Of a stretch of DNA of 64,000 bases, positions 4,837-27,779 are shown piece by piece. The DNA lies in the NCBI RefSeq assembly GCF_000092245.1, contig NC_014166.1, positions 372,001-436,000 on the forward strand, read 5' to 3'. The notes beneath the pieces are model-generated. The model saw nothing but the letters and a program-made list of their open reading frames with translations, ran no database searches and had not been told where the DNA came from. The stretch's first letter is position 1; each line of letters starts with the position of its first letter. Made by a program: the position numbers and the translations under genes. The DNA is from Arcobacter nitrofigilis DSM 7299 (GTDB lineage Bacteria; Campylobacterota; Campylobacteria; Campylobacterales; Arcobacteraceae).

Positions 4837-4867
4837 TTAAGACTTTTTCTTATGAAAGAAGTCTTAA
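4837..4867 (-). terminator. Hairpin overlapping the flagellin-like stop codon
   Basis: Perfect 9-bp arms (TTAAGACTT / AAGTCTTAA) are separated by 13 nt and flank the stop codon. No T-run follows on the minus strand, so it may stabilise the mRNA end rather than terminate transcription. Confidence 0.45.
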
Positions 4868-5689
4868 TACTGATTGTTGATTTATATTATTAGCTTGTGA
4901 TTGTCCAAAAGAACCAATTTGAGCTAAAATATTTTGTTTAGAGAAACTTGATACTTCTTTAGCAAAATCTACATTTGAAATAGTAGATAGGGCTGAACTG
5001 TTATTTACAACTTGTGCTGACATTGAAGTATATGAAGATTCTAATTGTTGTGCAGTAGAACCAATATCACTTCTAAAATCTTGAAGTTTCGCAGATGCTT
5101 GATCAATAGTATCTAAGAATGTTCTGGCATCATCAGCTGAAAATGTACCGTCTTGTAAAAATCCATCTAATCCTAAACCTTGGGTATTAGATTGAAGTGG
5201 ATTAAGGGAAGTACTATCTTGAGAATCAGTACCTGTTTGAGCATCAAAAGTATTACTTTCACCTTTGTCATCTTGATTTTTTTGTAAAATAGAATTATCA
5301 CCATAACTTGTACTTGAAGCAATGTTATCAAACTGTTCTAAAAGTTTAGAAATATCATTTCTAATAATATTTCTTTGATCATCACTTGTAGTATCTGTTG
5401 CTGCTTGTAAAGTTTTTTCTCTAATTGTATTTAAAATATCTGATTGCTCACCTAGCGCACTATCTCCTATTTGTAAATAAGATAAAGCACTATTGATATT
5501 TTGAACACCTTGTGTTAATCCACTTTGTTCATAATTTAATTGATCGGAAATAGCTAAAAGTGCAGGATCATCTGATGCTTTTGTTAATTCTTTATTTGTT
5601 GCAATCTTTTCTAAAGGATTGCTTGACCTAACTCCTTGAAGCTCTTCTGGTACATATAAATAATTGCTGTAATCATTTGATATAGTCAT
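4850..5689 (-). CDS. Flagellin-like protein
   Basis: 279 residues with flagellin D0/D1 features at both ends. The N-terminal part has LTKASDDPALLAISDQL and the coiled-coil-forming INSALSYLQIGDSALGEQSDILNTIRE; the C-terminal part has NVDFAKEVSSFSKQNILAQIGSFGQSQANN. The short middle (about residues 135-190) replaces a variable domain. The canonical start (MRINTN-like) is absent, so it is probably a minor or divergent filament protein. Flagellins export through the flagellar type III apparatus without a cleaved signal. The ribosome site AAGGAG lies 6 nt before the ATG. No other flagellar gene is in this window. Confidence 0.85.
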   Translation of the reverse strand: MTISNDYSNYLYVPEELQGVRSSNPLEKIATNKELTKASDDPALLAISDQLNYEQSGLTQGVQNINSALSYLQIGDSALGEQSDILNTIREKTLQAATDTTSDDQRNIIRNDISKLLEQFDNIASSTSYGDNSILQKNQDDKGESNTFDAQTGTDSQDSTSLNPLQSNTQGLGLDGFLQDGTFSADDARTFLDTIDQASAKLQDFRSDIGSTAQQLESSYTSMSAQVVNNSSALSTISNVDFAKEVSSFSKQNILAQIGSFGQSQANNINQQSVLRLLS

Positions 5690-5768: not shown

Positions 5769-5812
5769 GTTTTGTTAACCTTTTGTTAACCTTTGGTTGT
5801 TTCATAGTTAAC
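5769..5812. repeat. Four phased 11-bp repeats built on GTTAAC
   Basis: Four consecutive 11-bp units: GTTTTGTTAAC, CTTTTGTTAAC, CTTTGGTTGTT (degenerate) and TCATAGTTAAC. The GTTAAC cores start at 5774, 5785 and 5807, which is exactly one and then two helical turns apart. They sit between the divergent flagellin-like gene and the small-RNA promoter; the last core lies between that promoter's -35 and -10. This is typical of a cooperative operator array. A TTAAC-N5-GTTAA pair inside it resembles, with one extra spacer base, the C. jejuni NssR box as I recall it (TTAAC-N4-GTTAA). Confidence 0.65.
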
Positions 5813-5828
5813 TCAATAATTGTATAAT
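5801..5828 (+). promoter_or_regulatory. Promoter of the putative small RNA
   Basis: A consensus TATAAT at 5823-5828 and a 4-of-6 match to TTGACA (TTCATA, 5801-5806) are separated by 16 bp. Transcription would begin near 5836. Confidence 0.6.
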
Positions 5829-5835
5829 TTTTTTA

Positions 5836-5948
5836 TAAGTAAATAGGAAGCGCGAACACTAGGCTTGTTTACTAAGATTAAAGTTCTCCTTGAAATAAAA
5901 TTAAATCAGTTAAAAAAGGCACGCTAAAGGGTTAGGTGCCTTTTTTTA
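5836..5948 (+). ncRNA. Putative small RNA of about 110 nt
   Basis: A strong promoter box upstream and a textbook intrinsic terminator downstream enclose about 110 nt with no open reading frame. The RNA contains TTCTCCTTGAA, whose CTCCTT core is complementary to Shine-Dalgarno sequences, including the AAGGAGA before the divergent flagellin-like gene. I could not match it to 4.5S, 6S, tmRNA or RNase P RNA. Alternatively it is a long leader of truD with a transcription attenuator. The exact 5' end is estimated. Confidence 0.55.
5914..5948 (+). terminator. Intrinsic terminator of the putative small RNA
   Basis: Arms AAAAAGGCAC and GTGCCTTTTT with a 13-nt loop are followed by a seven-T run, on the plus strand, about 65 bp before truD. 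Confidence 0.85.
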
Positions 5949-6014: not shown

Positions 6015-7013
6015 ATGAAAAGAGTTTTTTTACAAAATTATAAACCCCTAGAATTTAAGTTCTATCAAAATATTGATGATTTTGTTGTTACTGAAAATCC
6101 AATAAATTTTACAAATAGAGGTAATTTTATAATTTTAAAAATAGAAAAAGAGAGATTAGGAACTTGGGATTTAATTGATTCACTTGCTAGAAATCTAAAT
6201 ATATATGATAATGAAATAGGTTATGCTGGATTAAAAGATAAAAATGCAACTACTACTCAACACATATCAATACCTAGAAAATATGCAAAAGATATAAAAA
6301 AATTCAAACATCCAAAAATAAAAATATTAGAAACTTATTTACACAGTACAAAACTAAATATCGGCGATTTGATTGGGAATTCATTTGAAATAAATCTTCA
6401 TGAAGTTGAATCTTGTGATGTGGGTATTATAGAAAAAAGATTACATGAACTTGCAAAAAATGGTATGCCAAACTTCTTTGGTTATCAAAGATTTGGTAAA
6501 GATGTAAAAGAGAACCTTGAAAAAGCAAATAAAATTATCTATGGCGATTTAAAAATAAGAGATAGAAAGCTAGAAAAGATGTTAATCTCGATTTATCAAA
6601 GTGATTTATTTAATAAGTGGCTTGCCAAAAGAGTTGAAATGTCTGATGGAAAATTTAAATTACTTGATGGTGAAGTTATGAAATCACTTGATGACTTGAA
6701 GTTCTTTACTCCAAATAAAATAAATGAAAAGATAATAAAAGACTTTGAAGACAAAAAAATAGTTCCTACTGGACTTTTATGTGGAAGAGAAGTTTATCGA
6801 GCAAGAAATGAAGCACAACTTATTGAAAAAGAGTTTGATGATACTTATATTCAAGAAAAAGGCTTAAGAAGAGATGCTATTATTTTTCCAAAAGATATTT
6901 TTGTAAATTATGATGTTGAAAATAAAAAGTGCAAACTAAAATTCACACTTCCAAAAGCTTCATATGCTACGGTTGTAGTTGAGAATATAGCAAATCAAAA
7001 TCTAAGAGTTTAA
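6015..7013 (+). CDS. truD: tRNA pseudouridine(13) synthase TruD
   Basis: 332 residues from the chosen ATG. TruD converts U13 of tRNA-Glu to pseudouridine. The family block containing the catalytic aspartate is clear (GYAGLKDKNATTTQHISIP, near residue 70), as is FFGYQRFGKD further on. This start is preferred over an in-frame TTG 12 codons upstream because AAAAGG sits 6 nt before it and the protein then begins MKRVFLQNY. It is preceded by the small RNA/attenuator region, and its 3' end overlaps the convergent kinase gene by 12 bp. Confidence 0.93.
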   Translation: MKRVFLQNYKPLEFKFYQNIDDFVVTENPINFTNRGNFIILKIEKERLGTWDLIDSLARNLNIYDNEIGYAGLKDKNATTTQHISIPRKYAKDIKKFKHPKIKILETYLHSTKLNIGDLIGNSFEINLHEVESCDVGIIEKRLHELAKNGMPNFFGYQRFGKDVKENLEKANKIIYGDLKIRDRKLEKMLISIYQSDLFNKWLAKRVEMSDGKFKLLDGEVMKSLDDLKFFTPNKINEKIIKDFEDKKIVPTGLLCGREVYRARNEAQLIEKEFDDTYIQEKGLRRDAIIFPKDIFVNYDVENKKCKLKFTLPKASYATVVVENIANQNLRV

Positions 7014-26480: not shown

Positions 26481-27779
26481 ATGAATAAATTTATATTATC
26501 AATTATAGTTTTAGTTATTTCACTAAATTTTTTACATGCTGATGTAAAAGCAGATAAAAAAGAAGAACAAAGTAGATTTGAATCATTGTCTAAATTAACA
26601 AATGTTATTGGCACTGTTGAAAAATATTATGTAGATGATCTAAAATTACAACAAATCGTAGATAAGGCATTAAAAGGTTTAATGCAAGAATTGGATGCAC
26701 ATTCAACATATATGGATAAAAAATATTTCAAAGAGATGCAAATCCAAACTGATGGTGAATTTGGGGGATTAGGAATTACTGTTGGAATGAGAGATGGAGC
26801 ATTGACTGTTATCTCACCAATTGATGGAACACCTGCATTTGAAGCTGGAGTTAAATCAGAAGATATTATATTAAAAATTGATGATAAATCAACATTAAAT
26901 ATGAGTTTAGACGAAGCTGTTAGTCTAATGCGTGGAAAACCAAAAACATCAATAACATTGACTGTTGTTAGAAAAGATGTGAGAAAACCTTTAGAAATAA
27001 AAATTGTAAGAGACATCATCAAAATTGAATCTGTAAAAGCAAAAACTATTGGAAAAGATATTTTATACCTAAGAGTTACAAGTTTTGACAAAAATGTTGT
27101 AGATGGATTAACTAAAGCAATTAAAGATGCAAAAGGTATTAAAGGAATTATTTTAGACTTAAGAAATAATCCAGGTGGACTATTAACTCAAGCAATAGGA
27201 ACAACTGATTTATTTGTAGACAAAGGAATCATTGTCTCACAAAAAGGTAGAGATGATTCAAGTGAAGAAACTTTTAATGCAAACTATTCAAAAACATTGA
27301 CAAGAGTTCCTTTAATTGTCCTTGTAAATGGTGGTAGTGCATCTGCTTCAGAAATCGTAAGTGGTGCTTTACAAGATCATAAAAGAGCAATTTTAGTTGG
27401 AGAAAAAACTTTTGGAAAAGGTTCTGTTCAAGTTGTATTACCAATTACTGCTGATAAGAGTGAAGCTATTAAATTAACTATTGCAAAATATTACTTACCA
27501 AGTGGAAGAACAATTCAAGCAACAGGTATTACTCCTGATGTAATTGCATATCCAGGAGAAGCTGTAAAAGCACCAGATATGGATTTCATGATAAAAGAAG
27601 CTGATTTGAAAAAACACTTAAAAAGTGAATTAGAAAAAGTTGATGGAAAAGATAAAGACGTAAAAAAAGAAACTAAAAAAGATGATAAAAAAATCATCAC
27701 AGATGAAGAGTTATTTAAAGACAATCAGTTAAAAACTGGTGTTGATATATTAAAAAGTTTAATAATTATTAACAAATAA
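26481..27779 (+). CDS. ctpA: C-terminal processing protease CtpA (S41 family)
   Basis: 432 residues. Signal peptide (MNKFILSIIVLVISLNFLHA), then a helical domain, a PDZ domain (GGLGITVGMRDGALTVISPIDGTPAFEAGVKSED) and the tail-specific protease core. The catalytic serine lies in NGGSASASEIVSGAL and the general-base lysine in GEKTFGKGSVQVV. A lysine-rich acidic tail ends the protein. It cleaves periplasmic proteins from exposed C-termini. It begins the transcript leading into the purine genes. Confidence 0.94.
   Translation: MNKFILSIIVLVISLNFLHADVKADKKEEQSRFESLSKLTNVIGTVEKYYVDDLKLQQIVDKALKGLMQELDAHSTYMDKKYFKEMQIQTDGEFGGLGITVGMRDGALTVISPIDGTPAFEAGVKSEDIILKIDDKSTLNMSLDEAVSLMRGKPKTSITLTVVRKDVRKPLEIKIVRDIIKIESVKAKTIGKDILYLRVTSFDKNVVDGLTKAIKDAKGIKGIILDLRNNPGGLLTQAIGTTDLFVDKGIIVSQKGRDDSSEETFNANYSKTLTRVPLIVLVNGGSASASEIVSGALQDHKRAILVGEKTFGKGSVQVVLPITADKSEAIKLTIAKYYLPSGRTIQATGITPDVIAYPGEAVKAPDMDFMIKEADLKKHLKSELEKVDGKDKDVKKETKKDDKKIITDEELFKDNQLKTGVDILKSLIIINK

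Follow-up and report, generated by a model that had tools for sequence, protein, structure and literature searches.

Multi-copy RNAs with C-rich anti-Shine-Dalgarno (anti-SD) segments and stress control are known as LhrC from Listeria and as the cuckoo/CUCCUCCC RNAs from alphaproteobacteria; these are set apart from the RNAs described here by description, as they belong to other phyla and have other promoters. In streptococci, the regulator CiaR drives htrA in addition to its csRNAs. The csRNAs are present as several RNAs per genome, with TTTAAG-N5-TTTAAG promoters placed 10 bp from the -10 element, and have two stem-loops around an unpaired SD-complementary segment, with a terminator at the end (PMC3091779, available part of the text). 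For C. jejuni, a 98-nt small RNA (sRNA), CJnc230, is described with two stem-loops around a single-stranded putative anti-SD (CCUU); it is RpoN-dependent and encoded downstream of flgE, and an array of the kind described below is not mentioned in the available part of the source (PMC11187230). HP1043/HsrA of H. pylori, a regulator of the OmpR family, binds two TTTAAG hexamers 5 bp apart at promoters (PMC8345958, available part), and CprR of C. jejuni is essential, its system likely affecting surface structures (PMC7887314, available part). Among the literature matches listed, no paper on such an RNA family in Arcobacter or Sulfurovum was found; Arcobacter sp. L was analysed in PMC6429828, which in its available part mentions unnamed motifs that could overlap.

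The window, that is, the whole stretch of 64,000 nucleotides analysed here (Arcobacter nitrofigilis DSM 7299, NC_014166.1, positions 372,001 to 436,000), contains a self-contained unit at 5823-5947, made up of a TATAAT element, about 110 nt, and a strong terminator. The consensus TATAAT, as the sequence-only reading had claimed, is located at 5823..5828 on the plus strand, 10 bp past the last hexamer of a four-hexamer array, GTTAAC-N5-GTTAAC-N5-GTTGTT-N5-GTTAAC (5774..5812, plus strand, period 11 bp; single hexamers GTTAAC at 5774, GTTAAC at 5785, GTTGTT at 5796, GTTAAC at 5807). This promoter array is the key to the identity of the unit and was absent from that reading. The putative small RNA gene of ~110 nt (5836..5947, plus strand; start inferred 7-9 nt past the -10 element) comprises a predicted 5' hairpin with GCGAA inside (5838..5873, MFE fold), an anti-SD segment GTTCTCCTTG predicted to be unpaired from pairing probabilities (5883..5892) with TCTCCTT inside it (5885-5891), and an intrinsic terminator (5912-5947, T run to 5947; MFE fold, also in G001, G002, and G034), all on the same strand. 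The terminator had been called perfect; it is present, its stem being AAAAAAGGCAC paired with GTGCCTTTTTT and, further in, a helix of 4 bp with one bulged base, which makes it not quite perfect. Neighbours are a divergent flagellin-like gene of 279 aa (4850..5689, minus strand), which is not a favoured target, and downstream an open frame (6015..7013, plus strand), which we take from its protein to be truD and treat as a separate unit. Like CJnc230, as far as its available description goes, the window RNA has an anti-SD segment between two predicted stem-loops and belongs to the same phylum; unlike CJnc230, which lies downstream of flgE, it is located between the flagellin gene and truD and has a TATAAT element.

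The predicted fold of the window RNA (-24.7 kcal/mol) has a hairpin at either end, the 3' one being the terminator, and between them a largely open centre that holds GUUCUCCUUG; the whole-RNA z of -1.56 is unremarkable by itself. The core anti-SD 5-mer has an unpaired probability of 0.89 versus 0.54 across the pre-terminator RNA. The built-in terminator scan of the window reported none, presumably because of its bulge and loop limits, whereas the MFE fold does contain the terminator; sigma-70-like sites in the region were not enriched (20 versus 18.8 in shuffles). One 20-codon TTG frame is present inside the RNA and absent from the G002 orthologue, so there is no conserved reading frame, and the earlier description of about 110 nt without a frame applies in this narrower sense. 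The window RNA matched no Rfam 15 family at gathering score (best sub-threshold scores at the sRNA 23.7 bits versus 45 on the same strand and 29.5 versus 50 on the opposite strand), and Rfam gave no match on 17 related loci. Over the whole window, Rfam placed two tRNAs and Rp_sR47, all away from the sRNA; the match to Rp_sR47, a Rickettsia sRNA, at window 27159-27469 (minus strand; 64.8 bits, gathering score 60) is unexpected outside Rickettsia.

The unit was found by DNA search in all 3/3 genomes of the genus (own genome included), with 98% identity in G001 and 79% in G002. The G002 alignment retains the array, TATAAT, TCTCCT, the terminator, and the region past the terminator, and differs in the 5' half; the 5' hairpin and terminator are present in the MFE folds of G001, G002, and G034, and the 5' hairpin also in one paralogue. 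The window unit is beyond chance because G002, at 79% identity, retains the promoter, the anti-SD core, and the terminator, and because of the array; it is conservation that carries the case for it, the fold by itself being weak evidence. In the family-wide DNA similarity search 13 of 104 genomes matched; among the ten matching genomes outside the genus two alignments were read (G034 and G093), the other eight being 26-39 bases long. The G093 match (L032) is a terminator at another locus. The G034 match is the orthologous unit next to a flagellin gene; it has no anti-SD 5-mer, and a 354-aa gene on the opposite strand sits between the sRNA unit and truD.

Two tandem paralogues are present in the own genome (C1:270.2-270.6 kb, minus strand; L122 8576-8247, minus strand), in each of which four half-sites are followed after ten bases by TATAAT and then by a hairpin region, GTTCTCC, and a terminator; they lie >100 kb from the window unit and not near truD. 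The operon downstream of them was judged by eye to encode a TctCBA-like transporter, and it also encodes a kinase and an OmpR-type regulator; G002 retains the tandem RNAs, and the match to the TctD-like regulator there is weak. In other genomes, array units were found upstream of truD, two in tandem in each of G084 and G085 and a single one in G087 and G088, the latter with fewer matching positions.

These neighbourhoods bear on both links that the sequence-only reading had offered, that to truD and that to flagellin. That the truD mRNA begins with this RNA, as a leader with an attenuator, would agree with the position of the RNA directly upstream of truD on the same strand in g1 and with the array units that precede truD in G084, G085, G087, and G088; we consider it very improbable, as a complete terminator precedes truD (67 bases between it and the ATG), an opposite-strand gene intervenes in G034, tandem paralogues occur elsewhere in the own genome, and two tandem units precede truD in G084 and G085. 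The association with truD is, thus, interrupted in G034 and not shared by the paralogues. The complementarity of TCTCCTT (5885-5891) to AAGGAGA in the ribosome site of the divergent flagellin gene was described correctly, both sequences being present, and with this 7-nt match and a flagellin neighbour retained in G001, G002, and G034 the sRNA might mainly control translation of that gene. This is improbable: flagellin was 9th of 54 by duplex energy, G002 retains 5 nt of the match (by eye), G034 has the flagellin neighbour and has lost the anti-SD 5-mer, and the own-genome paralogues adjoin a transporter operon. Target prediction was a ranking by plain duplex energy over 54 start regions in the window, with starts from a crude caller; truD was 39th, and the best duplex was that at the start of a class I fumarate hydratase gene (window 61760, minus strand, -18.4 kcal/mol; one prediction in one genome). 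Flagellin was rejected as favoured target on its rank of 9/54. What stands of the earlier reading is a free-standing small RNA gene with a predicted exposed anti-SD segment, which the sequence comparisons support; for a special link to flagellin and for a truD leader they give no support.

The array was scanned for with the pattern RTTANY-N5-RTTAAY-N5-RTTRNY-N5-RTTNAY-N10-TATAAT; matches to the first-seen units are by construction, because the pattern was derived from these units, and other matches are not. The array in the window is the sole 0-mismatch match in the 3.19-Mb genome; with three mismatches allowed, 32 matches in the own genome versus 24 in the control are mostly chance. Array spacing is identical in orthologues, in paralogues, and upstream of htrA genes, and the 10-bp distance from array to TATAAT recurs in related units (9-11 allowed in the search). 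Among 84,980 species genomes (genome_contigs) the exact pattern was found in 57 stretches, of which 52 are titled as Campylobacterota lineages, four as other phyla, and one as 'bacterium' only; the last carries a Sulfurovum-type RNA and regulator, and all four from other phyla run into an open frame. With <=2 mismatches, the 104 family genomes gave 231 matches (summed from the table) versus 1 for the reversed control, 81/104 genomes being positive; with <=1 mismatch, 46 of 398 order genomes were positive and the controls 0, matches outside the family having mostly been counted from the pattern and few read individually. Some array matches precede mRNAs other than htrA or are AT-rich repeats. 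Array-like sites were also noted before a gene for a MoxR-like ATPase (name by eye) at L218 and L337, in two families; such genes are possible further regulon members. The array is proposed to be bound by two dimers of a response regulator.

At the loci read, 143 unique array units were counted: 52 had a terminator, 13 a terminator plus a long frame, 41 just a frame, and 37 neither of the two; 42 terminated units were left after removal of near-duplicates. The window RNA looks like a member of a multi-copy RNA family of Arcobacter-like bacteria; the RNAs of the 42 units have a predicted length of 68-132 nt (median 114). An anti-SD 5-mer (CTCCT, CCTCC, TCCTT, or TCTCC, picked after the sequences had been seen) is present upstream of the terminator in 40/42 units, whereas 200 dinucleotide shuffles gave 8.9 on average and 16 at most; it is missing from two terminated units, L261 and the flagellin-adjacent one of G034. 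As an internal control, a 5-mer was located <=130 nt from the -10 element in 100/102 units that have a terminator or lack a long frame, versus 14/41 units running into a frame, near-duplicates included in both counts. The mean unpaired probability of the 5-mer is 0.82 versus 0.52 for the pre-terminator RNA, and is the higher value in 37/40 units. Over the 5'-terminal 48 nt, the fold has z < -1 in 30/42 units and falls short of this in 12/42. A covariation check, also suggested by the sequence-only reading, was made with RNAalifold on 20 related RNAs and recovered the terminator, not the 5' hairpins; therefore, there is no formal covariation for the 5' hairpins, and their conservation rests on single-sequence folds.

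GCGAA is present in the 5' part of 23/42 family RNAs (shuffle mean 3.5, maximum 7) and could be a protein site, so that the CU-rich segment might bind a protein or keep the RNA open, the RNA then being a sponge that pairs with no mRNA. We regard this as quite unlikely, since the unpaired SD complement recurs in differing contexts (TTCTCC, CTCCTCC, TTTCCTTG), as expected for pairing and not for one protein motif.

The array also precedes htrA, followed by the genes for an OmpR-type response regulator (RR) and a histidine kinase (HK), in g2 genomes and others. In G034 the htrA product matches TIGR02037 (464 bits, cut-off 416) and the kinase the NCBI ArsS family (398.8 bits, cut-off 250); the RRs of G034 and of the own genome score below the cut-offs of the best 25 of 89 and 82 NCBIfam models, respectively, so that an assignment as CprR/ArsR orthologue is not proven. 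The gene layout resembles what we take to be the C. jejuni order, htrA-cprR-cprS. Own-genome htrA, RR, and kinase are 74, 82, and 63% identical to their G034 counterparts, respectively. In 22/22 htrA-RR-HK regions, the best coding-strand array match (0-4 mismatches) lies directly upstream of htrA; 20 of these regions were chosen from the regulator list, and for some of them (e.g. G035, G064, G069) the family-wide array scan had listed a match at this place before; two were known from array matches. The array at the own-genome htrA is degenerate (4 mismatches), with all four hexamers present, the second shifted by 1 bp, and TAAAAT as -10 element.

A close RR is encoded in 80 of the 104 family genomes, and the array was found in 75/80 RR-positive versus 6/24 RR-negative genomes (Fisher p 5e-11; the test ignores relatedness and the table was read by eye). 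RR-positive genomes with no array at <=2 mismatches are G014, G016, G031, G033, and G052 (RR of G052 59% identical); in these, the site may have diverged or disappeared. RR relatives at E <=1e-50 are common at the order level (352/398 genomes), and their presence alone is therefore uninformative there. The operon of the regulator and the sRNA share this array, which would place the sRNA with an htrA-linked regulon of the ArsRS/CprRS type; in the simplest reading of these sequences, the htrA-linked RR would bind the array and control its own operon as well as the sRNAs.

The array might instead be occupied, for the same RNA, by another OmpR-family regulator, either the orphan HP1043/CosR or the TctD-like regulator by the paralogues. 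HP1043, which is from the same phylum and family, binds TTTAAG-5bp-TTTAAG, that is, two-hexamer sites of the same format and 5-bp spacing at promoters (PMC8345958, available part); its regulon differs in the hexamer, the array having RTTAAC and not TTTAAG, and an anti-SD RNA family is unmentioned in that part of the source. A further OmpR-type RR belongs to the operon that follows the tandem paralogues, but its best matches in the array-keeping G002 and G034 (E 1e-55 and 2e-52) are far weaker than its close orthologues, and it was disfavoured as regulator on these weak matches. As the array upstream of htrA-RR and of RR itself fits autoregulation, another regulator seems unlikely, and the htrA-linked RR is preferred.

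Among the 54 units from the named scan, seven lie before htrA, one of them in Arcobacter EP1, and 25 lie 203-235 bp ahead of the start of this same RR, its kinase following. The latter belong to Sulfurovum-like genomes, many of them closely related, with an RR identity of 57-61%. Of their leaders (L199, L203, L167, and 22 other loci), most that were read have three CUCC segments; in the L199 leader fold (-42.4 kcal/mol, z -6.69) a long closing stem encloses them. Since the RNA in the Sulfurovum-like genomes is the leader of the regulator gene, it may have a cis role there; it could be a cis element, become an sRNA by processing, or do both.

Taken together, we consider it probable that the window unit encodes a trans-acting anti-SD sRNA that belongs to the regulon of an autoregulated two-component system, HtrA-linked and ArsRS/CprRS-like, and that has a design like that of the CiaR csRNAs. 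The OmpR-type RR encoded just downstream of htrA would bind the array as two tandem dimers; in its phosphorylated form it would activate sRNA transcription under envelope or acid stress, and GUUCUCCUUG of the sRNA would pair with Shine-Dalgarno sequences of target mRNAs, whose translation would thereby be lowered. We infer each of these steps, namely transcription, RR binding, activation, SD pairing, and translational repression; for activation by the phosphorylated RR we rely on the end of the array, 10 bp before the -10 element, which is the distance at CiaR sites (PMC3091779, available part).

Common to the Arcobacter RNAs and the CiaR csRNAs are multiple anti-SD RNAs, OmpR-type direct-repeat promoters of hexamer-N5-hexamer form placed 10 bp from the -10 element, and predicted two stem-loops flanking an unpaired SD-complementary segment with a 3' terminator. 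In contrast to the CiaR csRNAs, the Arcobacter hexamer is RTTAAC and not TTTAAG and is present in four copies and not two, and the family belongs to another phylum and another regulator; the likeness is one of design. Because hexamer, hexamer number, regulator, and phylum differ, the window RNA was not filed as a CiaR csRNA member.

Tentatively, the system may be an envelope-stress RNA system of the Campylobacterota's own, convergent with that of CiaRH and the csRNAs, in which one HtrA-linked regulator would drive htrA, itself, and multi-copy RNAs mimicking the 16S tail, and in which the Sulfurovum-like leader with its three CUCC segments would act in cis and, once processed, as a broad translation brake. 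To our knowledge, the Campylobacterota are a phylum without Hfq. If the reading is true, this phylum would have a stress-controlled, multi-copy anti-SD RNA family for which a candidate regulator and binding site are named, and sRNA repression without Hfq would become testable in culturable Arcobacter species. The CiaRH design would also have arisen a second time independently, with htrA and several anti-SD RNAs under one regulator, which would suggest a general logic for envelope stress.
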